This document shows, piece by piece, positions 6,418-44,401 of a stretch of 45,018 nt of DNA. The position numbers and the translations under genes were made by a program. The DNA is from a virus. The DNA lies in the IMG/VR virus record IMGVR_UViG_3300045747_000249, positions 1 through 45,018 of that record, one strand, 5' to 3'. Below the pieces are notes generated by a model. It saw only the letters and a list, made by a program, of their open reading frames with translations, was not told where the DNA came from and did no database searches. How positions within the stretch are numbered: position 1 is the stretch's first letter; the number at the start of each line of letters is the position of its first letter.

Positions 6418-6449
6418 GCCCCTGGGCCTCACGGCCTGGGGGCCTTTTT
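6418..6449 (+). terminator. Rho-independent terminator after the lysis genes
   Basis: An 11-base-pair stem (6418-6428 with 6433-6443, two G-T pairs) with a TCAC loop is followed by a run of Ts to 6449. It would end rightward late transcription after Rz/Rz1. Its T-run just touches the last codon of the convergent integrase gene. Confidence 0.85.
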
Positions 6450-7440
6450 ATATGGAGCGCGCAATGTCGCCCAGGGTGGGGCGGTAGTAGGTATTCATCA
6501 GCAGGGACAGGTCCTTGTGTCGGCTCACCTTGGCCAGGTCCATGACGGCCAGCTTCTTGCTCATGTGGGTCAGGGCAGTGGCGCGGGTGTCGTGGAATGT
6601 GAGGCCCTCGATGAGGAGCTCCTTGCACAGTTTGCTGAACAACACGCTGGCCTCGTTGGCTTCGACCGTAAACGGCGCCCGGCGCAGCAGCTTGTCGGCC
6701 TTGCGTCCTATCGGCACCCTGGCTACGAGGTCGGTCTTGCGGGCACCAGCCACGTCGTTCAGGGTGACGATACGATCGTAGGGGCTATAGCGCTGGGGCG
6801 CTGCCAGCACCTCGCCCAGGCGCATGCCCGTGCGCAGGGCGATATGGAATGCCGCCTGCATCTCAGCGGTCTTGCCGACCCGCTTGGCCCGCAGCACCCG
6901 CTTGATCTCGCGCCAGCCCCAGACCGCCTGGCGTGGTTGGTTTTCGGCTGGCAACTTGACGCCCTCGAAGGGTAGGTGGTCGGTCCACTTCCATTCGTGC
7001 TTGGCCACGCGGAACAGGTTGCGCAGGATATTGGACTCGCGCACCACGGTCGATCCGCTCACCGGGGGCTGGGCCTTGATGCCCTTGGCTGGGTCAGCCT
7101 TGATGCCGGCCAGGCGCTCGTCGCGCCAGGCTGCGACCTGGGGCGTATCGATCTCGACGAGCAGGGTGTCGCTGCCGAAGTGGGCCCGGGCGGCCTCCAG
7201 GCGCCGGCGCTCCCAGACAGCCCCGTCTTTCTTGGAGCTCACCTCGGCCAGGTATTTGTCCACGGCGTCGCCAAAGGTATAGCCGCCGCCGGCCCGGTCG
7301 CGCTTAGCCTTGGCCTCGATAAGCAGGGCCCAGGCCTGGGCTTCACGCTTGGTGTCGAACACCTTGCTGGTGCGGGTTCCGTTGCGGTTTACCTGGGCGA
7401 TCCAGCGGCCGGATGTTTTGATCTTGTCTACGTATGCCAT
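6448..7440 (-). CDS. int: Tyrosine recombinase, phage integrase
   Basis: 330 residues from the ATG at 7440, which has GGAGAG a suitable distance upstream; a GTG at 7446 is too close to that site. The N-terminal 60 residues (residues around G-R-W-I-A-Q-V-N-R-N-G) form a small arm-binding domain, then a core-binding helical domain, then the catalytic domain. Catalytic residues are Arg207 (T-G-M-R-L-G-E), His283 and Arg286 (H-D-T-R), His308 (S-R-H-K) and Tyr318 or Tyr319 (N-T-Y-Y-R-P). It would catalyse recombination between attP, just upstream, and a bacterial tRNA gene. It is the last gene of the leftward operon. Confidence 0.95.
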   Translation of the reverse strand: MAYVDKIKTSGRWIAQVNRNGTRTSKVFDTKREAQAWALLIEAKAKRDRAGGGYTFGDAVDKYLAEVSSKKDGAVWERRRLEAARAHFGSDTLLVEIDTPQVAAWRDERLAGIKADPAKGIKAQPPVSGSTVVRESNILRNLFRVAKHEWKWTDHLPFEGVKLPAENQPRQAVWGWREIKRVLRAKRVGKTAEMQAAFHIALRTGMRLGEVLAAPQRYSPYDRIVTLNDVAGARKTDLVARVPIGRKADKLLRRAPFTVEANEASVLFSKLCKELLIEGLTFHDTRATALTHMSKKLAVMDLAKVSRHKDLSLLMNTYYRPTLGDIARSI

Positions 7441-7483
7441 TTGCACTCTCCATTTGCATTCTATTTGCGGAGGTACTGGAAAC

Positions 7484-17730: not shown

Positions 17731-17787
17731 GTGAGTAGTGTAAACACAAAAGTGAGCAGATAAAACCAAAGTGAGTAAATTAGTGAG
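17731..17787 (-). promoter_or_regulatory. Operator cluster upstream of the leftward operon
   Basis: Four CTCAC elements on the - strand (+ strand GTGAG at 17731, 17752, 17771 and 17783), two of them in the longer form CTCACTTT. Spacings are 21, 19 and 12 bases. The same element lies in the rightward promoter, so it is probably the binding site of the repressor, Cro or both. The rest of 17671-17975 holds the promoter, a terminator and no convincing gene. Confidence 0.5.
17737..17764 (-). promoter_or_regulatory. Candidate leftward early promoter (PL-like)
   Basis: On the - strand TTTATC (17759-17764) and TACACT (17737-17742) are 16 bases apart, giving a start near 17730 and a 60-base leader before the DUF932 gene. 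The -35 is weak. The spacer contains CTCACTTT at nearly the same place as in the rightward promoter, which is the main reason for choosing this pair. Confidence 0.5.
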
Positions 17788-17853
17788 TAGACAAGCCACA
17801 TTTATTTGAATCGACCACAGCTAATCGATTGATCCAGGCTATTCTGCAGGCGT

Positions 17854-17975: not shown

Positions 17976-18185
17976 ATGTACGAAGCAGAGATCGTTGGGC
18001 GTGGTGCCTTTGCCGCAGCCGCTATGGACTTGTCACGGCCGGTGCCGTTCTTGCCGGGTCAGGACGACCTGGCTACTTGCTGGGTGGGGGCGGGAGGTGG
18101 TCCAGCAGCAACTCTGTCACTGCTACAAGGGCTGCGGCCCTGCCACTCTCTGGTATCTGGTACAGCACTGCCAGGAATCGCGTAA
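17976..18185 (+). CDS. Doubtful small open frame antisense to the repressor end
   Basis: 69 residues. It has a fair ribosome-binding site (GGGAG, 10 bases before ATG) but its last 113 bases run antisense through the repressor 3' end, where the amino acid content is Gly/Ala/Leu-rich and shadow-like. The first 35 residues (Y-E-A-E-I-V-G-R-G-A-F) look more protein-like. It could be a small gene opposing the repressor or chance. Confidence 0.25.
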   Translation: MYEAEIVGRGAFAAAAMDLSRPVPFLPGQDDLATCWVGAGGGPAATLSLLQGLRPCHSLVSGTALPGIA

Positions 18186-18492
18186 GACGCTGCTCGGTCT
18201 CGGTGCCCATGGCCTGGGGCCGAACGATGGGCGCCCAGCCTGCGGGTGTAGCCGTGGCTGCCGGCCCGTCTTTATCCCCGATGCCGTGCGCGAGCCAGTC
18301 GTAGCTGACGCCTAGCGCTTTGGCGATTTGGGGCACCGTGCCGGGGATGCCTTCTTTATTGCCGCGTTTCCCGGACTCCATCATGCCGACGGTGCCCGTG
18401 CTCACGCCAGCGGCGGCGGCCAGATGCGCCTGAGTCCAGATTGGGCCCTTGGCCACCCGTGCACTCTTTAATCTTTCGGCCAATGTGGTCAT
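18073..18492 (-). CDS. CI-like lysogeny repressor (XRE family)
   Basis: 139 residues. Residues 1-75 form an XRE helix-turn-helix domain (L-A-E-R-L-K-S-A-R, then T-Q-A-H-L-A-A-A-A-G-V-S-T-G-T-V-G-M-M-E-S-G-K-R-G and I-A-K-A-L-G-V-S-Y-D-W-L). The C-terminal part is a short helical region ending in four prolines; the Ser-Lys peptidase domain of LexA-like repressors is absent, so induction by RecA-driven self-cleavage is unlikely. It diverges from Cro across an operator-bearing promoter region. The ATG has no obvious ribosome-binding site. Confidence 0.85.
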   Translation of the reverse strand: MTTLAERLKSARVAKGPIWTQAHLAAAAGVSTGTVGMMESGKRGNKEGIPGTVPQIAKALGVSYDWLAHGIGDKDGPAATATPAGWAPIVRPQAMGTETEQRLTRFLAVLYQIPESGRAAALVAVTELLLDHLPPPPSK

Positions 18493-18522
18493 AACCACAG
18501 AACCATAACGCCGCAAAAGTGC

Positions 18523-18551
18523 TTGGCGCTCACTCACTTTCGTTATATGAT
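18523..18551 (+). promoter_or_regulatory. Rightward early promoter (PR-like)
   Basis: TTGGCG (18523-18528) and TATGAT (18546-18551) with a 17-base spacer form a good sigma-70 promoter. The start should fall at 18557-18559, at or next to the Cro start codon. The spacer carries the operator motif. Confidence 0.75.
18529..18540 (+). promoter_or_regulatory. Operator inside the rightward promoter
   Basis: CTCACTCACTTT fills most of the promoter spacer; it matches the CTCACTTT elements of the leftward promoter in the same orientation relative to transcription. An AGTG half-site about 11 bases upstream could pair with it as a wider dyad. A protein bound here would block PR. Confidence 0.5.
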
Positions 18552-23935: not shown

Positions 23936-24135
23936 TCAGACAAAGCACCGACGGGGCAGCGGTCGTGAACACCGAGCTCAATTGGATTTCATTGGGTGAT
24001 AGCCAGCCAGGCGGTGGCCAACGTGTGCTGCTTATCAACCGACCGGATGGGGTGGCAAGGATCGACCTCTATCGGGCTGGTTGCCGGGCGACCCATTGGC
24101 AAGCGCTGCCAACCTTCAACGAGGCCGAGTCGTGA
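23932..24135 (+). CDS. DUF551-like small protein
   Basis: 67 residues from the ATG at 23932. N-W-I-S-L-G-D-S-Q-P-G-G-G-Q-R-V-L-L and the ending T-H-W-Q-A-L-P are the two conserved blocks of DUF551, a short family frequent in phage early regions with unknown function. ATGA overlap upstream and GTGA overlap downstream. Confidence 0.7.
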   Translation: MIRQSTDGAAVVNTELNWISLGDSQPGGGQRVLLINRPDGVARIDLYRAGCRATHWQALPTFNEAES

Positions 24136-24449
24136 AGCCGGCCGTTGGAATCAAGGCCCGCGTGGCCAAGGTGCTGGAGCTGGCCCAGGCGCCGCTGACC
24201 ATGGGCGAGATCATGGATAAAGCCGACATCCCCAAGACGTCAGCCAGCGAGGTCTCGAGTGCACTTTTCAAGCTGCGAGGCCAGGCAAAGGTCAAGACCG
24301 TTGGCGGTGAGTCAACGAGCAAGAGCGGACCGCGATACGTCAAGCGGTACGTATGGGTGCGAGTAGCACACAAGGCGCCTGTGGCTCAGCCACGGGTGGA
24401 ATCAGCAATCAGCCCATTTCAGATGCTGGGCATAGGGAGACTTGGATGA
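24132..24449 (+). CDS. Winged-helix protein
   Basis: 105 residues from a GTG that overlaps the previous stop. Residues 8-60 (V-L-E-L-A-Q-A-P-L-T-M-G-E-I-M-D, then S-E-V-S-S-A-L-F-K-L-R-G-Q-A-K-V) form a winged helix-turn-helix of the MarR/ArsR-like shape, followed by a basic wing (R-Y-V-K-R-Y-V-W-V-R). It could be a late-gene regulator since terminase genes follow, but there is no direct evidence. Confidence 0.6.
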   Translation: MKPAVGIKARVAKVLELAQAPLTMGEIMDKADIPKTSASEVSSALFKLRGQAKVKTVGGESTSKSGPRYVKRYVWVRVAHKAPVAQPRVESAISPFQMLGIGRLG

Positions 24450-24991
24450 GCAGAACGAACAAGAGCCCAGATGGCCCTCTTACCGCAGAGCGCCTGCGCG
24501 AGGTGCTTAACTATGACAGCGATACCGGCGCCTTCACATGGAAACAGTCGAAGGGCAACCAGTTCACCAAGGCCGGGATGCGAGCAGGGAGCGTCCACCA
24601 CGATGGGTACAGAGTTGCACGGGTTGATGGAAAAGGCTACTTGGAGCACCGCCTTGCGTGGCTTTACATCAACGGAGCTTGGCCGCCCGGCGATCTAGAT
24701 CACATCAACCGTGACAGGGCAGACAGCCGCATTGCAAACCTACGTGAGTCCTGCGACCTTCTTAATGGCCAGAACAAGAGCGTAGCCAGCAACAACAAGA
24801 GCGGAGCCCGCGGTGTTCACTGGTGCAAGACGTACAACAAGTGGCGCGCGGTTATACGCGTCAACTGGAAGCTGAAGCACATAGGCCGATTCAACACAGT
24901 CGAAGAAGCGCGAGCAGCGTACCTTGAAGCTGCCGCTATCCACCACCCTTTTAACTCTGACCTGAAGGACCGCAATGAGCAACGAGTTTGA
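24446..24991 (+). CDS. HNH-AP2 homing endonuclease
   Basis: 181 residues, ATGA-coupled to the winged-helix gene. The N-terminus resembles a NUMOD-type DNA-binding start, then H-R-L-A-W-L-Y-I-N-G and D-L-D-H-I-N-R-D-R-A-D-S-R-I-A-N-L-R make the HNH_3 core (about 70-100), and G-V-H-W-C-K-T-Y-N-K-W-R-A to I-G-R-F-N-T-V-E-E-A-R-A-A-Y is an AP2 DNA-binding domain. It is a mobile endonuclease rather than a phage core gene. Confidence 0.85.
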   Translation: MSRTNKSPDGPLTAERLREVLNYDSDTGAFTWKQSKGNQFTKAGMRAGSVHHDGYRVARVDGKGYLEHRLAWLYINGAWPPGDLDHINRDRADSRIANLRESCDLLNGQNKSVASNNKSGARGVHWCKTYNKWRAVIRVNWKLKHIGRFNTVEEARAAYLEAAAIHHPFNSDLKDRNEQRV

Positions 24992-25280
24992 TACTGATGA
25001 ATCTGAAGATTTGGACCTGATGCAGCTATGCATACCCGGCCAGGCCGTTACATGGGCTGGCATAACGCGACCAGGCGGCAACGTGTACTTGCAGGGTGAT
25101 CTGCACGCTTTAGGCAGCGCAACGGCGTTGATCAAAGCGGCCAAGGAGCATGTGCCATACGTACCTGTGAGCGCAGTGCAAGTTCTCTTCCCAGCCGAGT
25201 GGCTTGCGGCCGAGTGTTTGCATGACACAGATCGCTTGCGTGTGATTGCCAACCTATCGTCTTTTGTAAGGAGCCAATAA
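24975..25280 (+). CDS. Hypothetical protein
   Basis: 101 residues, 17-base overlap with the preceding endonuclease gene. The start is acidic (D-T-D-E-S-E-D-L-D), the rest mixed strand and helix with a V-S-A-V-Q-V-L-F-P-A-E-W-L motif. It is not in a family I recognise. A good AAGGAG site for the next gene lies at its end. Confidence 0.5.
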   Translation: MSNEFDTDESEDLDLMQLCIPGQAVTWAGITRPGGNVYLQGDLHALGSATALIKAAKEHVPYVPVSAVQVLFPAEWLAAECLHDTDRLRVIANLSSFVRSQ

Positions 25281-26061: not shown

Positions 26062-26587
26062 TTTACCCAAGAACGCGCATGGGCTAACCCAACCGCAGGA
26101 GACCTTTGCGCAGGCCCTTGTGCGCGGCGCCAGCCAGTCGCAAGCCTTCCGCGAGGCCTACCCCACCAGCGCGGCATGGAAGGATGCGTCAGTGTGGAAT
26201 AAGGCTAGTGCATTGGCTAGGTTGCCCGAGGTTCGGGCTAGGTGCGAGGCTCTGCGCGCGCCTGTTGCAGAGCGCGTCCAATACAACCTTGAGGTCGCTA
26301 TGCGTGAGGCACATGACGCATTCGAGGTGAGCCGGACCAACCGCCAGGGCGGTGCCATGGTGGCAGCGGCTCAACTCCGGGCCAAGCTCAACGGGCTTCT
26401 GGTGGACCGCCGCGAGATCAGCGTTACGCAGATGGGTGACATGACGCCGAGCGACAAACAAACACTGCTTGAGGCCGCGCGCGCTGCCTTGGAAGAGAAG
26501 AAGCGGCAGGTCATGCTTGTGGATAACTCGATCAGTGACGCCGTGGTCAAGGGCGAAGTGCAAATGAACAGCGACAAACATATATGA
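26054..26587 (+). CDS. terS: Terminase small subunit
   Basis: 177 residues from the ATG at 26054 with AGGAGAG upstream. L-T-Q-P-Q-E-T-F-A-Q-A-L-V-R-G-A-S-Q, then A-F-R-E-A-Y and L-P-E-V-R-A-R-C-E-A-L form the DNA-binding helix set of Terminase_2-like small subunits; the rest is helical oligomerisation region. It recognises phage DNA for packaging and passes it to the large subunit. The recognition site may lie in the 339-base gap before the large subunit gene. Confidence 0.8.
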   Translation: MANLPKNAHGLTQPQETFAQALVRGASQSQAFREAYPTSAAWKDASVWNKASALARLPEVRARCEALRAPVAERVQYNLEVAMREAHDAFEVSRTNRQGGAMVAAAQLRAKLNGLLVDRREISVTQMGDMTPSDKQTLLEAARAALEEKKRQVMLVDNSISDAVVKGEVQMNSDKHI

Positions 26588-26641
26588 ATCAAGCACTTAG
26601 CGCACAGGTTATGTTCCTACAGGAGGAACTAAACCCCGAAG

Positions 26642-26677
26642 AGGGGAGGAGAGAGGGAGGGGGGAGGGGTAGGGGGT
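26642..26677 (+). other. G-rich tract with G-quadruplex potential
   Basis: About 34 bases are nearly pure G and A with at least four runs of three or more Gs. It falls in the gap 26588-26926 between the terminase genes. No convincing gene fills the gap; a frame at 26584-26919 has composition of non-coding DNA. Other structure in the gap is listed separately. Confidence 0.6.
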
Positions 26678-26765
26678 CACCTCGCAGTGCACGACACGCT
26701 GCTGCCTTGTGCTGGCTTGATCTGCGTGGCGTGCTGCGCATGACGCGATGCGCCGCGGCTGCGCG

Positions 26766-26815
26766 ACCAGGCAAAAAGAACAGGCCACCCCCTGCGAAAA
26801 AAGCATTCTTTTGCC
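26766..26815. repeat. Long imperfect inverted repeat between terminase genes
   Basis: Bases 26766-26778 (CAGGCAAAAAGAA) and 26804-26815 (TTCTTTTGCCTG) pair over twelve positions with one extra A, enclosing a 25-base loop. It could act as a regulatory hairpin or part of a packaging site. Function open. Confidence 0.55.
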
Positions 26816-26856
26816 TGAATTCGAGGGGGAGTGGCCCCGGAAATCAAAAACGACCC

Positions 26857-26874
26857 ACCCCATTTATATGGGGT
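26857..26874. other. Perfect seven-pair hairpin before the large terminase gene
   Basis: ACCCCAT and ATGGGGT pair perfectly around a TTAT loop, 52 bases before the large terminase start. The T-run after it is weak, so terminator function is doubtful; a packaging or regulatory site is possible. Confidence 0.5.
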
Positions 26875-26926
26875 ACTTTCTACAAATGTTTGAAATCGAC
26901 ATTGCTCCTAAAAGGATAGCAACCAA

Positions 26927-28333
26927 ATGAGCCTAGCAAACCTATCTGAAGCCCAGCTCGCCGCATTGATCGACCAGCTCCAGTACGAGTCCAAGCGGGA
27001 GGGATGTCGGCTTTACAAGCCATACCCCAAACAGATGGACTTCCACGCGGCCACGAAGGACTACCGCGAAACGTGCTTCGCCGCCGGTAACCAGATTGGC
27101 AAGACGTTCGCTGCAGCTAACGGTCTCGCGATATGGCTAACAGGCGAGTACCCGGACTGGTGGGAGGGCCGGAGATGGGATCGCCCGGTGTCCGCCTGGG
27201 CTGCGGGGGTTACGGGGGAATCCACGCGAGACACTCTGCAACGGCTATTGATGGGGCGTCCAGGCCAGTTCGGAACGGGGGCTATTCCGGCTGACAGAAT
27301 TGTCAGCTATACCAGTGCCAGGGGTGTCAGTGATGCTCTGGACACCGTGATCGTCAAGCACAAAAATGGCGGAACATCCACGCTTGGATTCAAGTCGTAT
27401 GCCCGCGGCCGTGAGAGCCTGCAGGGCGAGACCTTGGATATCGTGGAGCTGGACGAAGAGCCAGAAGAATCTATCTATACCGAGGCCTTGACCCGTACCA
27501 ACGCCACAGGCGGATTGGTGGCCATGACCTTTACGCCACTGCTCGGGATGTCGACCGTGGTCAAACGGTTCTTCATGGAAAAATCCCCCGACCGTAAGTT
27601 AATCAACGCGACCATCGATGACGCTGGCCACTACACCCAGGAAGAGCGAGATCGGATTATTGCCAGCTACCCGGCCCATGAGCGCGATGCTCGAGCGCGG
27701 GGTGTTCCGGTGCTCGGCTCTGGGCGCGTGTACCCCGTAGACGAGGAGCTAATACGCGTGGAACCCTTTGCGCTTCCGAAGCACTGGGGGCGCTTGGCCG
27801 GTATCGACTTCGGCATATCGCACCCAACAGCCGTATCATGGATGGCGCACGACAGGGATACCGACTGCATCTATGTCTACGACACCATGCGGATAGCGGA
27901 TACCAGCGTGGTCTTGCAGGCACCGCTCATCGCGGCCAAAGGACGCTGGGTGCCTTGTGCGTACCCGCATGACGGCGACAACCGTGAGAAAAGCAGCGGT
28001 AGAACCCTGGCAGAGCAATACCGAGAGCTCGGGGTCAACATGTTGCCCGACCCAGTAAAGCATGCCGACGGCGGTAATTCGGTCGAGGCTGGTATCAGCG
28101 ACATCCTTAACCGGATGCAGACCGGCCGGTTTAAGGTGTTCAGCAACCAGACTTTGTTTTTTGAGGAGATGAGACTTTATCACCGCCGCAACGGGCTCAT
28201 CCACAAGGTCGATGAGGATTTGCTAGACGCGGTGCGCTACGGGGTCATGGGCATTCGCTATGCGGCGGCCGAGCCAAGGCCCATCGGCAAAGTCCTATCT
28301 GTCAACTTCGCTGCCCGGCGCGGCGGTTATTGA
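26927..28333 (+). CDS. terL: Terminase large subunit
   Basis: 468 residues. The ATPase has a Walker A variant G-N-Q-I-G-K-T at 54-60, Walker B D-I-V-E-L-D-E-E at 171-178, then a C motif T-F-T-P near 201. The nuclease domain begins G-I-D-F-G-I with Asp294, with H-D-G-D-N later and L-D-A-V-R-Y at the end. It cleaves concatemers and drives DNA into the prohead through the portal. An AAAGGA site precedes the ATG. The last 7 bases overlap a convergent HNH gene. Confidence 0.95.
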   Translation: MSLANLSEAQLAALIDQLQYESKREGCRLYKPYPKQMDFHAATKDYRETCFAAGNQIGKTFAAANGLAIWLTGEYPDWWEGRRWDRPVSAWAAGVTGESTRDTLQRLLMGRPGQFGTGAIPADRIVSYTSARGVSDALDTVIVKHKNGGTSTLGFKSYARGRESLQGETLDIVELDEEPEESIYTEALTRTNATGGLVAMTFTPLLGMSTVVKRFFMEKSPDRKLINATIDDAGHYTQEERDRIIASYPAHERDARARGVPVLGSGRVYPVDEELIRVEPFALPKHWGRLAGIDFGISHPTAVSWMAHDRDTDCIYVYDTMRIADTSVVLQAPLIAAKGRWVPCAYPHDGDNREKSSGRTLAEQYRELGVNMLPDPVKHADGGNSVEAGISDILNRMQTGRFKVFSNQTLFFEEMRLYHRRNGLIHKVDEDLLDAVRYGVMGIRYAAAEPRPIGKVLSVNFAARRGGY

Positions 28334-29025
28334 ACGGTGAAGCGGTTGTTCTTCCGTATGTTCTCCGAGGCGCTGAGTATCTGCAGGTTGTGTTCAACGT
28401 GTAGCCCGCACACAAGTCGGTGCTTCAGCGGTATTACGTGGTCGACGTGTCGCCGTACTCCATCCAGAGCCTCAAGCCGACGGGCCTCTTCGTACACGGC
28501 TCGAACGGCCTCCAAGTTGGCCCAGCCAGGAGTCGCCTTCGCTTTGTTTGCTTGACGGGTTCTGACGTAGGCCCGGGCCCAGGAGAGAGCGGCACTTGCC
28601 CGGATACCGGCGCAGGCTTTGCACTCATGCCAAAGGCCATCGCGTCTTACCTCATCACCCGTGAAGTCGGATGCCGGCTTCTCCGCAGAGCAGGACGGGC
28701 AGACCTTGGAGGCGACAGCCCGGGCGCGAAGGCGGCCGGTAGCCCGAAACTGCCGCGTCGCTAACTGGGCGCAGGATGAGCAAATACCCTGGAGGCCGTT
28801 GTATTTGTTCGGGTGGTAGGCAGACGCGGGTTTTGACAAGCCGCAACCCGGGCATTGTTTTGAATCAGGCAGAGCCTTGACCGTTGGTTTTCGTTTGCCG
28901 GCCCGGGTCGCCTTGAAGCAGTCTTTGCAGATCGACTGGTATCCATCCCGGCGGTGCGTGTAGAAGGCCCCTAGCGGTTTAGTGCAGCCGCACTTGGTGC
29001 AGCATTTAGAATCAGGATCAGGCAT
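28327..29025 (-). CDS. HNH endonuclease with repeated zinc fingers, inverted in the late operon
   Basis: 232 residues from the ATG at 29025. Three C-x-x-C...C-x-x-C modules occur (C-T-K-C-G-C-T-K-P, C-P-G-C-G-L-S-K-P, C-P-S-C-S-A-E-K-P), each about 45 residues, then a helix and an HNH end (H-V-D-H-V-I-P-L-K-H, then H-N-L-Q-I-L). It faces against all the late genes around it, which marks it as an inserted mobile gene. Expression must come from its own promoter, possibly the palindromic element at 29133. Confidence 0.8.
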   Translation of the reverse strand: MPDPDSKCCTKCGCTKPLGAFYTHRRDGYQSICKDCFKATRAGKRKPTVKALPDSKQCPGCGLSKPASAYHPNKYNGLQGICSSCAQLATRQFRATGRLRARAVASKVCPSCSAEKPASDFTGDEVRRDGLWHECKACAGIRASAALSWARAYVRTRQANKAKATPGWANLEAVRAVYEEARRLEALDGVRRHVDHVIPLKHRLVCGLHVEHNLQILSASENIRKNNRFTVQ

Positions 29026-29132: not shown

Positions 29133-29195
29133 CCGGCATATATGCCAGCGTAGACCACCCACCCGGCGCTCAACAGAATAGGGCTAACTACTCTT
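29133..29195 (+). repeat. Palindromic intergenic element, copy A
   Basis: Begins CCGGCATATATGCC, continues with GCGTAGACC, a short variable part and CGCTCAACAGAATAGG. It is about 80 percent identical to copy B at 31425 over some 60 bases by eye. Both precede structural genes, so a phage-specific promoter or regulator site is likely. Confidence 0.7.
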
Positions 29196-29204
29196 GGAGC
29201 CGCC

Positions 29205-29468
29205 ATGCCCTCCTCCTATTCCAATAACGTATCCCCTACCGACCCGTGCGTAGAGCTCGCGGCGATCACGACAAGCGACACGGTTGACTTGCCGAAGATA
29301 GCTCGTACGATCTACGTTGGCGCAGGCGGCAACATCGCTTTGATCGCCGCTGGCGACAGCTCCGCGGTAACGCTGGTTGCTGTGCCAGGCGGAACGATTC
29401 TCCCTATCCGGGTGAAGCGGGTGCTGGTGACGGGCACCACGGCGGCGTCCCTGGTCGCGATGTACTGA
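29205..29468 (+). CDS. Small virion surface protein candidate
   Basis: 87 residues. T-T-S-D-T-V-D-L-P-K-I-A-R-T-I-Y-V-G-A-G-G, then V-P-G-G-T-I-L-P-I-R-V-K-R-V-L-V-T-G-T-T-A is a beta-rich family common beside phage structural genes and sometimes named spike base protein; naming is from memory. TTGGAG lies upstream of the ATG. The next gene starts two bases after the stop. Confidence 0.6.
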   Translation: MPSSYSNNVSPTDPCVELAAITTSDTVDLPKIARTIYVGAGGNIALIAAGDSSAVTLVAVPGGTILPIRVKRVLVTGTTAASLVAMY

Positions 29469-29469
29469 T

Positions 29470-31146
29470 ATGTTTTTAGGCGTAGGCGTACCCCTAACCG
29501 CTGTTGCCAAGGCGGTAAGCGGAGGCGTACCAGCGGCAAGCCTTCTTCTTAATTTTGTAGACATAGGCACGCTCGACCCTCGCATCACCTTCACCCGCGC
29601 CGACGCAACAAGCTGTGCAACGTACTTCGACTCCACGGGCCGGATGCAGACTGCAGCGGCTAACGTGGCACGCTTTGACTACGACCCAGCCACGATCGCT
29701 GGTACTACGGGTGTAAACATTGCCCCTACGCTACAAACGTCAAGCTGGGGTACAGCAAGTGGCTGGTCGTTCGATGGTACGGGCAATATGGTTGTCTCTG
29801 GCGCGGGGGCGTTTACCAATATCGGCAGCATGACAAACCCGTTGACACTGGGGAAAAGATACCTTATATCATTTACCGTGTCTGGGTTTTCTGGCGTGTC
29901 TATTTTCGTAGGCCCTTCTGGCCAGCAGGGTATTACAAATGTCCCGGCGACTGGCAATGGGACATTTTCTGGGTACATCCCAGCTCTTAGCGTAGCCCTT
30001 TCTTGGCAGGTAGGCAATGCCTCTACCTCCTGTGTTATCTCTAATTTCTCCATCCAAGAAGTAGTCTTCACCCCCCGTGGCCTGTTGATCGAAGAATCCC
30101 GCACGAACCTGCTGTTGCAGAGTCGGGATATGACGAACGCGGCGTGGAACAATACTGACACAGCAGCGGCCCGTTCACAGGTCGGCATTGACGGTACAGC
30201 CAATTCAGCCTGCCTGTTGACGCAGGGCGTAGCTGGAACCGCCCAAACATTCCAGAACCCAGCGACGACATTTACCGCAGGCGCTGCACTTGCAGGGTCA
30301 TTCACGCTCAAGTACGGGAACAACCCTTGGGTTTTGTTGATTCTCTCTGACTCCACCGCTGCCGCAACCCTAAACGTTTGGTTCAACATTCAGACGGGTG
30401 CGGTAGGGTCGTCATCAGTTGGGGGCGTTGCCACGGGTGTATCTGGGTCAGTCATCAACTGCGGTGGTGGCTGGTACCGGTGCGTAGTGTCAGGCTTGCT
30501 GAATGGCGGATTCACCGCTGGTCGGCTTACCCTTGTTGGGGTATCTGCAAACGGCGGAGCAACCCGCGTCAACAACTCCACCTACATCGTAGACTGCGCC
30601 CAGCTTGAAGTAGGCGCTACCGTATCCAGCATCATCCCCACAACAACGGCGGCGGTGACACGGGCTGCGGATAACGCGAGCATGACGGGAACGAACTTTA
30701 GTAGCTGGTTTTCTCAGCCTCAAGGTACGCTGGTATCAGTTTTCGACTGTACCTACGCTATAGCGGAAGGCGCGAACCACCACTACTCTGCCACTATTGC
30801 TCAAGATGGCAGTCAAGTATTGGCCCACCGCATCCGATCCAATCTTGGTGACTTCATCGGCATGTATAGGGCTGGTGCGTACTCAGGCGACCAAGCGGTA
30901 TCCAATGGAGCGTACACATCGGGGACGGTCACAAAAGCTACCTTAGCCTATTCGTCTGTATCCTTGGGTGTCGCTAAAGACGGTGGCCCCGTTGCAGTTG
31001 GGGCATCGCCTACGCTTATCCCAGCTCCGATAGTGCTCTACATCGGGAATAACAATACGGCTTCATACCTGAACGGTCACATCCGCAGCATCACCTACTA
31101 CAACACCCGCCTACCCGACGCAACGCTACAGGCGCTCACAGCATGA
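29470..31146 (+). CDS. Head spike or tail spike fibre-like protein
   Basis: 558 residues. The N-terminus (L-N-F-V-D-I-G-T-L-D-P-R-I-T-F-T-R-A-D-A) and the block G-L-L-I-E-E-S-R-T-N-L-L-L at about 205-217 are typical of phage spike proteins carrying carbohydrate-binding or LamG-like jelly rolls. Two such beta-rich domains seem present, before and after that block, and a third at the C-terminus (Y-N-T-R-L-P-D-A-T-L-Q). It should sit on the virion surface and bind host glycans. The preceding small protein may be its base. Confidence 0.7.
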   Translation: MFLGVGVPLTAVAKAVSGGVPAASLLLNFVDIGTLDPRITFTRADATSCATYFDSTGRMQTAAANVARFDYDPATIAGTTGVNIAPTLQTSSWGTASGWSFDGTGNMVVSGAGAFTNIGSMTNPLTLGKRYLISFTVSGFSGVSIFVGPSGQQGITNVPATGNGTFSGYIPALSVALSWQVGNASTSCVISNFSIQEVVFTPRGLLIEESRTNLLLQSRDMTNAAWNNTDTAAARSQVGIDGTANSACLLTQGVAGTAQTFQNPATTFTAGAALAGSFTLKYGNNPWVLLILSDSTAAATLNVWFNIQTGAVGSSSVGGVATGVSGSVINCGGGWYRCVVSGLLNGGFTAGRLTLVGVSANGGATRVNNSTYIVDCAQLEVGATVSSIIPTTTAAVTRAADNASMTGTNFSSWFSQPQGTLVSVFDCTYAIAEGANHHYSATIAQDGSQVLAHRIRSNLGDFIGMYRAGAYSGDQAVSNGAYTSGTVTKATLAYSSVSLGVAKDGGPVAVGASPTLIPAPIVLYIGNNNTASYLNGHIRSITYYNTRLPDATLQALTA

Positions 31147-31412
31147 TCTTCGCCATGCGCCTCTACATCCTCCTCGGAGCGCTGCTGCTGGCTACCCAGT
31201 TCTCTGGCTGCACAGGCATGGTGAAGGAGCGTGACGTAGCGACTACCGAGATCACATGGATTCGCAAGGCTCCCGTGAACTGTGGCGGTGAGATGCGTGA
31301 TGGCTGCGCTGTGACCCGTGGCCCGGCTTGCTTCATCTACATGGATGAGGATGCGCCTGACTTCATCATCGCCCATGAGTTTCGACACTGCTTCGGGTAC
31401 AAGCACGTCTGA
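31143..31412 (+). CDS. Small lipoprotein with HExxHxxGxxH zinc motif
   Basis: 89 residues; the ATG at 31143 overlaps the previous stop, with ATG 31155 as alternative. Residues 5-23 form a lipoprotein signal ending F-S-G-C (Cys23). The C-terminus reads H-E-F-R-H-C-F-G-Y-K-H (His78 to His88), an exact metzincin zinc-binding consensus, one residue before the end. Two cysteine pairs may form disulfides. A 66-residue mature protein is far below any usual metzincin, so it may be a minimal peptidase, a zinc-binding fragment or a coincidental relic. Confidence 0.7.
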   Translation: MIFAMRLYILLGALLLATQFSGCTGMVKERDVATTEITWIRKAPVNCGGEMRDGCAVTRGPACFIYMDEDAPDFIIAHEFRHCFGYKHV

Positions 31413-31424
31413 GGTACTGAGCAC

Positions 31425-31487
31425 CCGGCATATATGCCGGCGTAGACCCACTGCGCACCGCTCAACAGAATAGGACCAATCACTGTA
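31425..31487 (+). repeat. Palindromic intergenic element, copy B
   Basis: CCGGCATATATGCCGG is a perfect 16-base palindrome here, followed by CGTAGACCC and CGCTCAACAGAATAGG, matching copy A. Two further small hairpins follow (CACTG/CAGTG and GTCCGC/GCGGAC) before the portal gene. A third copy of the 14-base core lies inside a gene at 44126. Confidence 0.7.
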
Positions 31488-31533
31488 GGCAGTGGTGCGT
31501 CCGCCCTTTGCGCGGACATCAACAGGTCCGCAA

Positions 31534-33777
31534 ATGAACCCACTTGAGCAGCAGATCACAGAGGCCTTGCAGTCTGGAGACATAGCCCCGGAAGATGCAC
31601 TGGCGGCTGTGCAACAGCTCATGGCCGACCCCGAGGCGATAGCCAAACAGCAGCAACAGGATGCAGAGGACCGCAGACAGCGGTTATCGGCGCTGGGCCT
31701 ACGCCTTGCAGGCGAGGCGCAGACCCAGGTTGCCCTTCGCCAGATGACCGAAGAGCGCTGGTACAAAGACGTGCGCCAGTTCAACGGCCAGTACGACCCC
31801 GGCACCTTTGCCGAGGACAGCCAGTACGGCTCTCGGGTATTCGTGCCCCTGACACGGCGCCTGGTGAACCTGTGCGAGGCCCGTCTGTTCGACATGGTCT
31901 TCCCCAGCGACCTGCGCTTCTACGTCATTGAGCCCACACCAGTCCCGGACATGGACAACGCCGACCGCCTGGCGGACCAACTTCCAGAGGACCACCCGGT
32001 CCAGCTACCCGGCGGGCCCCAGGTCCAGGCCGGCACCATCCAGGCCGCCATCAAACAGGTTATTGAAGAGGCAAAGCACAAGAACGATGCGATGCAACGC
32101 GAGATCGACGACCAGCTCTCCGAGTGCAACTACGCCTCGGTAGCGCGTGACGCGATCCACGACGCTGTGCTCCTGGGCACCGGCGTCTTGAAGGGCCCCG
32201 CGCCCATGATGAAGACGGCCAAGCGCTGGACGCAGGGCCCGGATGGCGCACATACGCTGCTGATGGAGAAGAAACCGACACCCGTCACCGTGCGCGTGGA
32301 CCTGTGGAACTTCTTCCCCGACATGGCCAGCACCACGATGGGTGACTGCGAGCGCGTGTGGGAACGCCACTTCCTGACTAAGCTGCAGATGGCAGCGCTC
32401 AAAGACATGCCCGGCGTGGACCTGGACGGCCTGCGCGAGATTCTCGAAGGGCAGCCCTCGGCGCCAACGAACAACTACCGCGAGCGGTTGCGTGCCATCA
32501 ACGGCGCCAACGGTGCGCCAGACAAGCGATACGAGGTGTGGGAATACCACGGCCCCGTGGACTACCAGGACCTGGTTGACTGCGGCGTGGAGGACGTGGC
32601 CGAGGAAGAGGACCCCCTGGACCAGTACACCGGCATCGTCTGGTTCTGCGGCAACACCGTATTCAAAGCGGCGTTGAACCCCATGGACGGGGGCGACTTG
32701 CCTTACCGCGTGTTCAACTGGCAAAAAGACGAGAGCTCGATCTTCGGTTTCGGCCTGCCCTACGAGGTGCGCGACCAGCAGGTCAGCGCGAACTCGAGCT
32801 GGCGCGCGATGCTGGACAACATGGGCCTGTGCGTCATGCCCCAGATCGTGCTGGACGAGAACAGTATCGAGCCGGTCAACGGCTCCTACGGGCTGGAGCC
32901 CGGCAAGGCCTGGCGCAACAAGCGCCCGGGATCAGACGGCCGCCAGGGTATTCAGTTCGTCGAGATCGGCTCCCGGCTCAATGAGCTGCAGGCCATCTTC
33001 GCAGCAAGCAAATCGCTCATCGAGGAAGTGGGCACCATGCCCGGCTTCATCCAGGGCGCCGACGCGCCGGCCAAGATGCAGTCCGCAACCGAGGCCAGCA
33101 TCAGTTGGACCGCGGCCAACCTGTGGGTACGCCGGTGCGTGCGCAACTGGGACGACGACATCACCACGCCGACCATCCGCGGGTACTACGACTACAACAT
33201 GCAGTGGTCCGAGAAGGAAGACATCAAGGGCGACAGCAAAGTGCGCGCCCTGGGTATCGCCGCACTGGCCGAACTCGAGGGCCAGGCCGGTCGTATGCAG
33301 CAGCTCGCCAATGCCGCGGCTGCCATGGGCCTGCCGATGTCCACGCAGATGGCCATGTTGCGTGAGCTCAGCCGGTCTCTGAAGCTGGACCCCGATCGCT
33401 GGCTGCCAAGCGACCAGGAGATTCAGAAAATGAAGGCCGCCGAGCAGCAGAACCCCAAGCAAGACCCCGAGACCATGAAGTGGCAAGTGGCCAAGCAAAA
33501 CAACGAGATGGACTTCAAGCTCGGAGAGGAGCAGATTGCTCTGAAACGCGAAGAGTTGCAGGGCCGCCGCGAGGACAACCAGGCGCGCATGCAGCTCGAG
33601 ATCGCAGATACCGCAGCGACCAAGGACATGACGCAGCAACAGGCCATGCAGAAGTACGGGTTTGAGCAGAACCGCATCAACACCGAGATCGCCGACCGCA
33701 AAGACGCACGCGACCACAAGGCGCAGATGCTCAACGCCGAGATGGCTCTCAAGGCCCAACTGGGTAGCGGCGTATGA
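31534..33777 (+). CDS. Portal protein
   Basis: 747 residues from the ATG at 31534. The middle has L-P-Y-R-V-F-N-W, then S-A-N-S-S-W-R-A-M-L-D-N and M-P-G-F-I-Q-G-A-D-A-P, all landmarks of podoviral portals of the P22-like class. The C-terminal 130 residues are a Gln/Glu/Lys-rich coiled coil that would form the long barrel. It forms the dodecamer at the vertex where terminase docks and the tail is built. The gap 31413-31533 before it holds regulatory repeats only. Confidence 0.85.
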   Translation: MNPLEQQITEALQSGDIAPEDALAAVQQLMADPEAIAKQQQQDAEDRRQRLSALGLRLAGEAQTQVALRQMTEERWYKDVRQFNGQYDPGTFAEDSQYGSRVFVPLTRRLVNLCEARLFDMVFPSDLRFYVIEPTPVPDMDNADRLADQLPEDHPVQLPGGPQVQAGTIQAAIKQVIEEAKHKNDAMQREIDDQLSECNYASVARDAIHDAVLLGTGVLKGPAPMMKTAKRWTQGPDGAHTLLMEKKPTPVTVRVDLWNFFPDMASTTMGDCERVWERHFLTKLQMAALKDMPGVDLDGLREILEGQPSAPTNNYRERLRAINGANGAPDKRYEVWEYHGPVDYQDLVDCGVEDVAEEEDPLDQYTGIVWFCGNTVFKAALNPMDGGDLPYRVFNWQKDESSIFGFGLPYEVRDQQVSANSSWRAMLDNMGLCVMPQIVLDENSIEPVNGSYGLEPGKAWRNKRPGSDGRQGIQFVEIGSRLNELQAIFAASKSLIEEVGTMPGFIQGADAPAKMQSATEASISWTAANLWVRRCVRNWDDDITTPTIRGYYDYNMQWSEKEDIKGDSKVRALGIAALAELEGQAGRMQQLANAAAAMGLPMSTQMAMLRELSRSLKLDPDRWLPSDQEIQKMKAAEQQNPKQDPETMKWQVAKQNNEMDFKLGEEQIALKREELQGRREDNQARMQLEIADTAATKDMTQQQAMQKYGFEQNRINTEIADRKDARDHKAQMLNAEMALKAQLGSGV

Positions 33778-41200: not shown

Positions 41201-43991
41201 CGCCCAGTCCATGCGTGAGCAGGGCCTCAAGGCCGATGAGAACCTGACCGGAGCTCCCATATTTTCACAGAAGAAAGTCAACCCGCTGGACAAGGTCGCT
41301 GAGAAGGAAGGCGAGCGCGCGGTTAGCACCATATCGTCCAAGCCCGGTCGTGACTTCACGGCGAATGGCGCACCCGTCAAGATAGTCAGTTATCCGAAGA
41401 CCAAAGACGTCGAGTTCGCAACAAGCCGCCTGCACGCTCGAGTGCGCCAGATCATTGGCGGCTCCGGCTTTACCAAGTACGTTCAAAGCACGTTGGGCCT
41501 GGCCGGTGCAAAGGTGGCCATTGGGGATATTCGTGGTTTGTGGGCGGATGAGCGTGAAGACACGTTCACGTTGCGCATTAGCGACAGTGAAAACAACCCA
41601 ATCGGATTCAGCCAGGCCCGCAAGATCACCAATTTGCTGGGCTTTGCCTTCGTTCAAGAGGGGGCCGTTACGGCAGCCCCATCCACCGAGGCCATCGACG
41701 GCATCGACCCCGTTCCAGCGGTCTTGATTGGCAAGCCAAATGGGGCTAAGATGGAACGGGGCGAGGTTAACGGTGCGTTGGCCGCAGCCAGGGATGCGGG
41801 GTTCTTCGGCGCCAGCGAGGCCATGAGTGGTCGGGGCATCAAGTTCCTGTTCTTCCCTGACGACAGCTCCGCAAAGAGCGTAGACGAACAGCACGACGAT
41901 TTTGTCGCGCAAGTCCAGGCGGTCCAGCAGAAAACTGGGCTCACTGGATGGTCCGCCTACAAAAACGTTAGCTCGCTCGACGGAGCGAAAGACTATTGGA
42001 GCAACGTAAATGGTAATGACACTAGCGCAAAAACTGGAAGCAGCGGGCTGCAAGATGGTTCCGGACAATCACTGGATTTATTCAGAGGGACCGTCGATAC
42101 ACTTCTTGCCCCGTACATCGCAGCCCTCCGAGTCGAAGGATTCGGATTCGACTACAAGGCCTGGGCCGCAGTCAACGGTGCAACCCCAGGACAACAAAGC
42201 TACCTAGAGTCCAAGGTCGCCGAGCTTGAGGACATCAACAAGCACGGTGTCGTCAAGAAGCTGCGTCAGACGGTATCCATTGTCGGCAAGAAGGGTATCG
42301 GCACCGACCCGAAGATCAGCCAGACTACCACCAACGCCAACGCAGTAAAGCAGCTCGCAGCTCTTGATGAAGTACTGGCCGCTTCCAAGGACCCAACGGC
42401 CAGCGTAGACGCCTGGCTCCGTATGAACGCCTTGGCCTACGGCACAAACGACGTGCCGATGGCGCCCGCCCGCTTCATCGAGATGCTGAATGACAATAGC
42501 ATCTACACCCAGCTCAAAGCGCTGTCGCCCGGCCAGGTGAAGGACGCGGACCACGGTTTTGCAAATGCCGCCGAGTTCCGCAAACTCTACGAGTCCGGCA
42601 AAGTCAAACCGGCCACCACGGCCAAGCTGATGCTATGGTCATTCCTGTCACGCGGGGTATCCCCCTATGTGCAGGAAGGCGGATTCATCGACCTGGTCGG
42701 CAAGGTAGAACCCTTCGTGCAGAAGATGCTGGACGGCCAGTTCACCGACAGCGACGCGATTGCTTGGAACAAGGTTGTGTCAGCTTCTATCGTCAAGGGC
42801 ACGGGCCAACCCGGTGCTGGAACGACACACAACGCCAACGCCTTCGGCTCCTCCTTCATGCGCAACATGGCAGAGCGGATGCCCGACGGCCGCACGAAGA
42901 TGGCGTTCATGCACGACCTATTCTCTGATCCAACAAAGACTGGCCGCGAAATCCGCCGGGAGTTTGTCAAGATCGGCGAGGGCGCCGGCATCGACAACAA
43001 GGTGATCAGCTTCACGCTCCTGGTTATCGGGCACCCGGATGTGGCTGTACTTGACCGCGTGCAGATCGACAATACGTTCAACGACGGACGCCTTGGAAAG
43101 TACAACCTGTACGACGGCGTTACGCGCTACGGTGTGCGGGATAGAGAGACGTTTAAGGTGGAGTGGTTCGGAACCAGTGCGGCCGCGAAGGAAGAAGCCG
43201 AAACCCGTGTAGCAGAGTCTGGCAAAAAAGCTGAGATGGTTGCCACGGTGCAGCCTGGCTCCGGTATGGCTGGGCTCACCACCGGTGCGCAGGGCCTGCT
43301 CATTTATGAGCCCCTTGAGAACGCGTTGGAAAAGGTGCTGCCCGACATCTTCGGCCGCCTAGCCGAGGAAGGGTTGCGTTCGAAGGACATGGCGGCGAGC
43401 GTTGGACGCTGGCACTGGGAGTCTTGGGTAGCGCACTCGGGTCAAGAGGCGAGCCACCAAACGCTGGACGCGCTGCTTAACGAAGTGCGCGGGGACGCTA
43501 ACCCCTTCGCCGATGTGCCAGCCAAAGAAGGGGAGTACGGCGCTTACAACTACGGCACCGAGTACGCTATTGGAAAAGACGGGAAACCGTACAAGACCTA
43601 CTCCAGCAGTACCGGCCAGGGCTACAAGATGGACCTGGACTCATACAACAAGTTCATAGAGGCCGTAAAAAAAGCCGGGAAGAAAGGCGTCGTCCCCTCG
43701 GGGTTCAAGGTGTCAACAAACCAAGACGGTTCCGACCGCTCGGCCCCTTGGTTTAACGATAGCCGGGTCAACCGCGAACGCCTCGATGCCTTGGTGCAGC
43801 AGTTCGGAAAGCCAACCGGTAACGCCCCAGCGTTCTCCAACAAAGCCCAAGACCTCGACCAGGACATCACCTTAGAAATCCCAGTGGAGGGCGGCAAGGT
43901 GGCCAAGCTCACGGTCAACGCCCAGACTTACATCAAACAGCTCGACGCGCGCCAGTCAGCGCTCGAGATGGTCAAGGAGTGCATGCTATGA
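38238..43991 (+). CDS. Giant polyvalent/ejection protein with HExxH motif
   Basis: 1917 residues from the ATG at 38238 (TAATG overlap). It opens with V-N-L-P-N-G-T-R-L-N-F-P-D-G-L-S, a short domain usual at the start of phage polyvalent proteins. Next come helical and Gly/Ala-rich membrane-like blocks (about 215-265 and 300-410), Pro/Ala/Thr linkers (about 430-775), then V-A-H-E-A-V-H with His866, Glu867 and His870, a zinc-peptidase-like site, and several long globular domains to the end. It probably enters the host with the DNA, as T7 gp16 does, and may act on cell wall or host proteins. The segment 40339-40563 may have changed reading frame. Confidence 0.75.
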   Translation: MPVVNLPNGTRLNFPDGLSSEEMAAAIDSKFPEYASKPTEAPVKDNRSFFERIGDAMNSAQDAPTDYAVEPKKQSVLEGLQPGLPVGDNYDARSLTALSNLPRWQGAVDQAVAKGKQVLADKKAEAEAPLPERTTADYIKDMGLSVAEVAPSIAKIGTDVMNMVTLGQLGFDQASKLLEVSMSEAERKFGSAAAKAQRAKLQALKAGGASAVDLVTFFVNNPMLAATMATPSVGSVLAPLGAVKLATKVLGPLSAEAVTGISNATNIAMNAGDTFTQTDGNVLDKLNAATVAGVGTYVGGQLTGGGAEGALARNMSGAAPRVNPFAAVAKDALVKEPTQEFIENASQSIGQDFGERRPADIDKAIQEGTIGAILAPVAAGPMSAIGAHGEHLANKPAAAAEAAKVDALAKWKAFGDLTQTPAPGVAPRVEDMPTTPVAPTVTPKTNANQNTVDQILAAEGATPDAVPAGGVAADAVQPVGPAGPGTTDAPQVGGSDAGGPTAATPANGSTSTVSNPASAIPDTTTVAERLAKIEAELKASRERQEKEWADKLAKQKADAEAADAEKRSNGAAYQQTSATPTPQAGVVPTLQEGPATPLPAASYRQTSGTPTTPTNVATGPAPAASTPAVAWDADTKAALDTAPPTPLSQGMVNMAMERWKKNSDLTDAKVYPEKVLYGIINSSDVGPDLLAAARTELSRRRGTLTQPTVSTSASTSGTTSLGVGGPTQSSDQSGQGTQAAGDTVAQPGPSGPTASAPTAAVGSAPTAQSGRGLGLAPPTPVKRFVEVRNSIAASKPGVEVAISKQPLDEQQKVASAFANLTGSTFTLVEDEGTTGNMPNGFVDGYGGKHIYIDAKSTHAPLIVVAHEAVHGLPDHIRKPLIKALNKMATPGAKQEFLKRYGYTKLLASDKAEEIGAYLGQLSAQRPGFWQELRQKMGNKDFSALAAHILSKFKELAGLAKDKTDDTFLDRHFNEGEIAKMRSMVTDAYAQSMREQGLKADENLTGAPIFSQKKVNPLDKVAEKEGERAVSTISSKPGRDFTANGAPVKIVSYPKTKDVEFATSRLHARVRQIIGGSGFTKYVQSTLGLAGAKVAIGDIRGLWADEREDTFTLRISDSENNPIGFSQARKITNLLGFAFVQEGAVTAAPSTEAIDGIDPVPAVLIGKPNGAKMERGEVNGALAAARDAGFFGASEAMSGRGIKFLFFPDDSSAKSVDEQHDDFVAQVQAVQQKTGLTGWSAYKNVSSLDGAKDYWSNVNGNDTSAKTGSSGLQDGSGQSLDLFRGTVDTLLAPYIAALRVEGFGFDYKAWAAVNGATPGQQSYLESKVAELEDINKHGVVKKLRQTVSIVGKKGIGTDPKISQTTTNANAVKQLAALDEVLAASKDPTASVDAWLRMNALAYGTNDVPMAPARFIEMLNDNSIYTQLKALSPGQVKDADHGFANAAEFRKLYESGKVKPATTAKLMLWSFLSRGVSPYVQEGGFIDLVGKVEPFVQKMLDGQFTDSDAIAWNKVVSASIVKGTGQPGAGTTHNANAFGSSFMRNMAERMPDGRTKMAFMHDLFSDPTKTGREIRREFVKIGEGAGIDNKVISFTLLVIGHPDVAVLDRVQIDNTFNDGRLGKYNLYDGVTRYGVRDRETFKVEWFGTSAAAKEEAETRVAESGKKAEMVATVQPGSGMAGLTTGAQGLLIYEPLENALEKVLPDIFGRLAEEGLRSKDMAASVGRWHWESWVAHSGQEASHQTLDALLNEVRGDANPFADVPAKEGEYGAYNYGTEYAIGKDGKPYKTYSSSTGQGYKMDLDSYNKFIEAVKKAGKKGVVPSGFKVSTNQDGSDRSAPWFNDSRVNRERLDALVQQFGKPTGNAPAFSNKAQDLDQDITLEIPVEGGKVAKLTVNAQTYIKQLDARQSALEMVKECML

Positions 43992-44401
43992 AGATGATGA
44001 CGGCGGACCAGGTTAAGCGCCTGGCCCTCGCGCACGGCGGCAAGGCCCAGATCGATGGCCGAGCCATCAATGCTGCGAGGCTGCAAATCGGCAACGTGCC
44101 GGCCGCCAAGCAGGGCCCGCCCAAACCGGCATATATGCCGCCAGAGCCAAAGCCGCCCATGGTGCAGACAATCGAAGCAAAGCCAGACCCGGCCGTGCGC
44201 GAGGCTGTGCAGTCGATTGACCAGTATGCGGCAAGCCAGTTTCTGCTCAATGAGTCCAACGCTCAATTGATGCAGACCGTCAAGGCAATGCTGCAGCAGG
44301 TATCGGCCGCCAAGCCCGAAGCCCGGCCCACGCAGTGGGTGTTCAAGATCAAGCGTGATGCCCAGGGCCTGATGGAAACCATCACAGCTAAAGCGATATG
44401 A
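43988..44401 (+). CDS. Hypothetical virion-region protein
   Basis: 137 residues from the ATG at 43988 (ATGA overlap). Helical start, a Pro-rich middle (Y-M-P-P-E-P-K-P-P), a helix with Q-L-M-Q-T-V-K-A-M-L-Q-Q, and an end (W-V-F-K-I-K-R-D-A-Q-G-L-M) that resembles small phage assembly proteins. The CCGGCATATATGCCG core lies inside it at 44126-44140 and encodes P-A-Y-M-P. Confidence 0.55.
   Translation: MKMMTADQVKRLALAHGGKAQIDGRAINAARLQIGNVPAAKQGPPKPAYMPPEPKPPMVQTIEAKPDPAVREAVQSIDQYAASQFLLNESNAQLMQTVKAMLQQVSAAKPEARPTQWVFKIKRDAQGLMETITAKAI
44126..44140 (+). repeat. Third copy of the palindrome core, within a gene
   Basis: CCGGCATATATGCCG matches the cores of the elements at 29133 and 31425, but the following GTAGACC and CAACAGAATAGG blocks are absent. 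It may still bind the same factor or be chance in a Pro-rich segment. Confidence 0.5.

Follow-up and report, generated by a model that had tools for sequence, protein, structure and literature searches.

A palindromic element as a predicted late promoter of structural genes in a temperate podovirus clade and in dispersed phage-derived clusters of Acidovorax

The window analysed here, a stretch of 45,018 nucleotides (nt) in all, is an IMG/VR virus record (IMGVR_UViG_3300045747_000249), which reads as a temperate podovirus from its gene set. A short palindromic element is repeated in it ahead of a pair of tail-fibre-type genes and ahead of the portal gene. The sequence CCGGCATATATGCC is found at 29133, 31425 and 44126, and the whole window holds no other exact copy. 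The second block, CGCTCAACAGAATAGG, is found in the window at 29167 and 31459 only; in shuffled sequences it has on average 0.23 matches, even with 3 mismatches tolerated. GTAGACC is located at 29150 and 31442. The initial annotation had described an element doubled ahead of the gene pair and of the portal, with common blocks, and a core recurring at 44126. All three blocks are matched exactly at the first two sites, and at 44126 the exact CCGGCATATATGCC is accompanied by a degenerate second block (GACAAT at 28 nt). Copies 1 and 2, ~50 bases each, are identical in three blocks and have the same architecture: the dyad GCATATATGC, 5 nt, a -35-like TAGACC, 17 nt, and a -10-like CAGAAT, which lies 28 nt from the dyad. 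The window has 3 dyads of the type GCATWWATGC, whereas 200 mononucleotide shuffles average 0.115 and never exceed 2. The copies are:

29133-29182, plus strand: predicted late promoter, copy 1 (dyad 29136-29145; TAGACC 29151-29156; CAGAAT 29174-29179; predicted start ~29186)
31425-31474, plus strand: predicted late promoter, copy 2 (dyad 31428-31437; TAGACC 31443-31448; CAGAAT 31466-31471; predicted start ~31478)
44126-44172, plus strand: probable third copy, within the open reading frame (ORF) 43979-44401 (dyad 44129-44138; GACAAT 44167-44172 at 28 nt; no good -35)

The third copy is kept in two relatives (L030:7511, L038:12569), a conservation which could partly be protein-driven, because the site sits in a coding ORF. 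The genes surrounding copies 1 and 2 are:

26927-28333, plus strand: large terminase (phrog_2), the final gene ahead of the late promoter in genomes of the L004/L005 type
28327-29025, minus strand: Endonuclease-VII/HNH-like gene (phrog_1035), inserted between terminase and copy 1
29205-29468 (phrog_12296) and 29470-31146 (phrog_5939), plus strand: tail-fibre-type gene pair behind copy 1
31143-31412, plus strand: lipoprotein-like ORF of 89 amino acids (aa), so read from its translation, at the end of the cassette inserted between copies 1 and 2; no family matched in the PHROG scan
31534-33777, plus strand: portal (phrog_332/phrog_1216), first gene behind copy 2; ORF listed from GTG 31492

Conservation of the element was analyzed in relatives chosen by portal homology alone, among viral contigs and bacterial genomes, the motif having no part in the selection. 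The motif search in related phages proposed in the initial annotation finds both blocks, GCATWWATGC and, 28 or 29 nt on, a -10-like NA[CG]NNT, ahead of the portal in 18/18 non-identical loci with upstream sequence, although independent lineages are fewer than 18, as L034/L040, L036/L047 and L033/L039 are close pairs. The set includes the window, L003, L004, L005, L033, L034, L035, L036, L037, L038, L039, L040, L046, L047, L049, L051, L053 and L056, and the portals of the 17 relatives are 55–86% identical to that of the window. L014, L018, L029, L044, L045, L050, L052 and L055 were left out as repeats of the same record or genome; L048 and L042 begin at the portal, and hence are outside the counts. 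For L047 and L055, the element was taken directly from the upstream sequence. The gene found upstream of the element varies among the 18 loci, being a terminase, HNH, lipoprotein, sulfotransferase or other gene.

No such element precedes the portal in 8 distant loci (26–37% identity; L006, L007, L008, L009, L041, L043, L054, L057). In L008 a stray palindrome, without the hexamer, lies 1.25 kb ahead of the portal. The hexamer is missing from the stray palindromes of two non-member phages. L006 and L007 feature, by eye, a conserved TTGC..16 nt..TATGAT directly upstream of the portal, at the place of the dyad promoter; therefore, a host-type promoter ahead of the portal either predates the dyad or replaces it. 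A look-up made with a conserved 101-aa protein, encoded upstream of the terminase in the window, gave 19 loci, 18 of which were analysed (L045, the same record as L004, was left out). Terminase and portal are both present in 6 of the 18 (L135, L136, L137, L148, L150, L049), and the motif is ahead of the portal in 6/6. Pattern searches were less productive. Exact long composite patterns had no match in viral contigs, and the second block alone matched two unrelated contigs; a looser composite picked up 16 stretches, corresponding to two known relatives plus apparent chance coding matches, and a pattern made by the dyad and the -35 region 3 stretches, of which one is a chance match and the others are known relatives. 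No match was obtained in a DNA-level search of the region against named phages.

The spacing between dyad and hexamer was measured in 26 record/region sets (742,312 bases, 43 palindromes, 86 oriented sites). NA[CG]NNT is found at 28 or 29 nt from 41/43 palindromes (12 + 30 oriented hits), a figure inflated because several regions were fetched via a composite match, a bias of which the portal set is free. Other spacings, from 10 to 60, score a mean of 1.24 and a maximum of 4 per 86 oriented sites. In 31 representative elements the -10 hexamer has A in second and T in sixth position throughout (31/31 for both, which are part of the search rule), and A in 27/31 in fourth position, which the rule leaves unconstrained. 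A spacing of 17 nt gives the best -35 match, with a mean of 2.94/6 versus 1.52 at 16 and 1.65 at 18 nt; the best-of-three match averages 3.13, versus 2.18 with shuffled spacers. The centre of the dyad is AT in 35, TA in 5 and TT in 1 of 41 palindromes. C follows the dyad in 37/41, the preceding base is free, and dyad-flanking positions are complementary in only 19/41. Flank asymmetry and missing pairing are more in line with a protein-binding DNA site than with a hairpin. In L034:3934, L046:9968, L051:2241 and L056:9915 the hexamer ends 6–7 nt ahead of the first ATG, and leaderless late mRNAs are therefore predicted in these relatives.

In phages, the transcription units headed by the motif are the portal operon, that of scaffold and capsid (L062, L066, L067; G004) and inserted cassettes, as that behind copy 1 in the window. 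The motif also heads the gene for a giant internal protein, where this has its own promoter (G004, G007; by the downstream-start reading). In the window, as in G007, the interval from terminase to portal holds a cassette with a palindrome on either side.

The palindrome is most likely the switch for the particle-building genes in a family of temperate short-tailed phages. We give a probability of about 0.8 to the reading of the element as a late promoter recognized by the host sigma70 RNA polymerase and turned on by a phage-encoded dimeric activator. The site for an unknown late activator, one of the options raised in the initial annotation, gives the best fit, as the distance to the -10-like hexamer is fixed at 28/29 nt, and the element lies directly ahead of virion genes and belongs to one clade. 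As in activator-dependent promoters, the -35 is weak, its best match averaging 3.1/6 in the 31 elements (2–4 matches in 28, 5 in three). The predicted start of transcription is ~7 nt past the hexamer, with the centre of the dyad near -46; a dimer bound there would make up for the poor -35. Insertion of a fibre cassette into the terminase–portal interval accounts for there being two copies in the window, one promoter on each side of the cassette.

The activator would be one of two proteins encoded just ahead of the terminase, in the operon preceding the late genes:

24132-24449, plus strand: winged-helix protein, 105 aa, first-choice candidate for the late activator (hmmsearch E 2.8e-16; model pLDDT 73.4; best Z 9.7 in VIA, to winged-helix regulators)
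24975-25280, plus strand: conserved 101-aa protein, second candidate activator or partner (model pLDDT 86.7; APSES-like rows at Z 4.1 or less)

The winged-helix family was found in the window, L003, L004, L033, L037, L039, L046, L056, and four Acidovorax terminase loci; the 101-aa family is distributed in the same loci. Both are present in the motif-bearing phage loci whose sequence reaches this region. Neither was found in 9 motif-less loci, in some of which only a short stretch upstream is covered. The model of the winged-helix protein has the topology H-H-H-E-E, and 223/1000 rows of its VIA comparison have a Z of 8 or more, mostly with winged-helix proteins. APSES/KilA-N-like rows top the VIA list of the 101-aa model, at Z values too weak to be proof, and Foldseek gave no significant match for this model. 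Neither candidate matched Mor/C or Ogr in Pfam at E 1, a threshold at which HMMER filters may drop weak matches. A dimeric winged-helix protein sitting on the GCAT-WW-ATGC dyad would be the simplest inference. An ORF of 111 aa with low-complexity content (26584-26919), in the interval between small and large terminase, is a doubtful gene.

Several points weigh against the late promoter. Both hexamers are weak by E. coli standards, and neither copy 1 nor copy 2 appeared in the output of a promoter scanner run on the window. Members of the clade share descent, and therefore conservation partly reflects common ancestry. Two G007 palindromes (L071:10950, L072:15236) have no canonical hexamer. The candidate activators were singled out by co-occurrence and predicted fold only, and co-occurrence cannot tell them apart because they are neighbours.

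The element also marks the chromosome of four Acidovorax: A1169 (G010), Root219 (G012), A. soli (G027) and CF316 (G030). Each has 4 or 5 motif copies at phage-derived clusters, which lie between host genes in 4/4 genomes and are syntenic. The clusters headed by the motif encode the portal, scaffold and capsid, a protein of 896 aa (3/4 genomes), one of 2342 aa, and a fibre (3/4). Contigs are draft assemblies, and distances between clusters are known only within contigs; in Root219 C21 and CF316 C119, ~28–35 kb of host genes lie between two clusters. The capsid matches PF25209 (E 4.2e-11) and is 39% identical to capsids of named phages. Cluster capsids were found in 5/47 genomes of the genus, one at only 38%, and in 7/399 sampled genomes of the family. 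A separate locus encodes lysozyme, a holin-like protein, the winged-helix and 101-aa proteins, the small terminase, and a large terminase split by an insertion. The same terminase locus, without the portal, occurs in ten IMG/VR records (L139–L147, L149); in L146 and L147 the sequence stops short of the second terminase part, and, going by record number, L144 comes from the same isolate genome as L052 (Root219), and L147 from that of L055 (A. soli). In L121, L122, L123, L124, L139–L145 and L149, ATPase and nuclease of the large terminase are separate ORFs with other sequence inserted between them; in the prophage of A1169 C2 the gene is split without insertion.

The clusters are under purifying selection. 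Among the four, capsids are 98–100% identical, with omega 0.02–0.07 and a synonymous divergence (dS) like that of the flanking host genes; omega ranges from 0 to 0.36 in other cluster genes, and from 0.07 to 0.33 in host flanks. All 12 phage-derived genes analysed, and 4/4 host genes, favour the same four-taxon split, which has weak support in the 101-aa gene (4/3/2) and in the nuclease part of the large terminase, TerL (10/7/5). A1169 and Root219 additionally hold an intact prophage of the clade, with an integrase within ~45 kb in both. Integrases were searched in the Acidovorax genomes with PF00589; none of the 34 matches lies on cluster contigs, except one on G012:C10, ~117 kb away. The integrase, repressor, primase and polymerase of the window had no tblastn match in Acidovorax contigs, a result which tells nothing on the clusters, because the intact prophages gave none either. 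No clean empty insertion site was recovered: in three other Acidovorax featuring the flanking block, the capsid cluster does not adjoin it, and the far flank is not nearby.

Dispersed clusters and terminase/lysis locus look like a domesticated, gene-transfer-agent-like element. Gene transfer agents are characterized (PMC9662315) by Caudoviricete-derived proteins, endogenisation often at multiple loci, vertical inheritance with host co-diversification, incomplete packaging of their own genome, and particles delivering mostly random host DNA. In Acidovorax, capsid, portal, terminase and lysozyme are Caudoviricete-derived, multiple endogenised loci are seen in 4/4 genomes, and the split shared by 12/12 phage-derived and 4/4 host genes corresponds to vertical inheritance. 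Tentatively, and at less than even odds, the palindrome could be the common command line for the genes of a domesticated podovirus, with the portal, scaffold/capsid, giant-protein and fibre loci, and in three strains that of a toxin-like protein, firing together. The terminase/lysis locus also encodes both candidate activators. As part of this reading, host DNA and a variable antibacterial toxin, singly or together, may be the cargo of the predicted particles, and the window phage may be a still-mobile relative using the same code. Such an element would be, to our knowledge, without precedent both among betaproteobacteria and among those of podovirus type. In the 896-aa protein, the first 400 residues are conserved (80–98% identity), and the C-terminus is mostly 10–40% identical between species; one such C-terminus has weak matches, below cut-offs, to WHH and colicin-DNase nuclease models. 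A constant N-terminus joined to a species-specific C-terminus is the layout of polymorphic or polyvalent proteins. The toxin-like gene has the same promoter in front and small ORFs behind, and is located at:

L078:11360-14050, minus strand: R219 contig C21
L091:2684-5050, plus strand: CF316
L094:13233-15722, minus strand: A. soli

Composite matches at several positions of host chromosomes are also what a host transcription factor site, belonging to a host regulon borrowed by the phage, would give. This is unlikely. The carrier genomes have 24 matches, and those examined (L058–L060, L063–L067, and the portal loci) head phage-derived genes, while two further ones, G012:C10:327882 and G027:C6:40220, look like or may be chance sites. 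Clusters are missing from 43/47 genomes of the genus, and a stricter pattern is found in only 2 of those 43. The host-factor promoter entertained in the initial annotation survives in so far as the -10/-35 layout points to the host sigma70 polymerase; no host regulon emerges, as the stricter pattern occurs in only 6/47 genomes, 4 of which have the clusters, and in the other 2 the match is apparently a coding look-alike.

It is less probable still that the element is a packaging (pac/cos) or recombination site near the terminase, repeated via cassette insertion. The first copy does follow the terminase gene in L004 and L005, and copies flank the inserted cassette in the window and G007; yet copies at a great distance from the terminase are found ahead of scaffold/capsid, giant-protein and fibre genes, in the direction of the gene and at a fixed distance from a -10-like hexamer, and dispersed terminase loci are without the element. 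Still more doubtful is a structured RNA (leader, riboswitch or stable RNA). The palindrome has the potential for a hairpin, and the fold of copy 2 plus leader is better than that of shuffled sequences (z -2.61), but copy 1 does no better than shuffles (z -0.55), flanks lack covariation (19/41 complementary), no Rfam family matches at gathering thresholds, and the dyad would sit upstream of the predicted transcription start; the stable RNA initially proposed thus finds little room. The promoter of a phage single-subunit RNA polymerase is the least credible alternative: the end of the second block, AATAGG, resembles T7-class promoters by eye, but a loose hexamer and a 16-nt block with a dyad 28/29 nt upstream are unlike the contiguous promoters of T7 type, and the PHROG scan found no RNA polymerase among 28 distinct proteins of the window, which is incomplete.

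Other genes of the window agree with a temperate phage. The PHROG scan also identified a DNA polymerase, a primase-helicase and a helicase, besides terminase and portal, and two further genes are:

6448-7446: integrase
18073-18495: CI-like repressor

Repeats of the AAAGTGAG type, located at 17746-17790 and 18515-18545, by the repressor and the start of the minus-strand early genes, are possible repressor operators. The palindrome as a CI operator was set aside, since the repressor region carries, by eye, these repeats instead. The portal probably starts at ATG 31534, and not at GTG 31492, because the former is aligned with the ATG of L003, L004 and L005; its identity to the nearest named phages is 33% at most. 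In the portal leader (31498-31531), GTCCGC..GCGGAC..GTCCGC makes two mutually exclusive stems by the start codon, and is kept in L003 and L004. The record seems incomplete, because no homologue of the capsid or scaffold of the Acidovorax clusters is inside and its ends do not overlap.

The element provides a signature for the late regulon of a temperate podovirus clade, by which late operons can be listed and cassettes found, and two activator candidates can be named. The signature also exposes phage-derived structural clusters, some stored in IMG/VR as separate short viral contigs. The dispersed clusters so exposed could be new: titles and abstract openings on gene transfer agents, Acidovorax prophages and late-promoter palindromes mention no such element or promoter, and a literature search on late promoters of HMO-2011 type found nothing. 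If particles are made from the clusters, these would represent a new, host-owned lineage, serving gene transfer or the delivery of toxins, under a single palindrome.

Activator-dependent late promoters are known in temperate phages, as those served by C/Mor in Mu and by Ogr in P2. The element resembles these in its upstream dyad, host sigma70 -10, poor -35, virion genes and presumed small phage activator, but differs in having a GCATWWATGC dyad near -46, and candidates for which no named Mor/C or Ogr family was matched in Pfam at E 1, where weak matches may be dropped by the filters. Pseudoalteromonas phage vB_Pun_Y3 and Stenotrophomonas phage StenR_269 are the nearest annotated phages for portal and capsid. 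They share the order terminase-portal-scaffold-capsid and a capsid of N4-gp56 type (a hypothetical protein has the place of the scaffold in vB_Pun_Y3). Unlike in the window clade, terminase and portal abut or overlap in both, with no promoter element between, and the sole palindrome of vB_Pun_Y3 is without the hexamer. Like RcGTA, BaGTA and VSH-1, the Acidovorax clusters are phage-derived, multi-locus, host-inherited and under purifying selection; they differ from these in the podovirus type of their genes, in the betaproteobacterial host, and in a single palindromic, predicted promoter.
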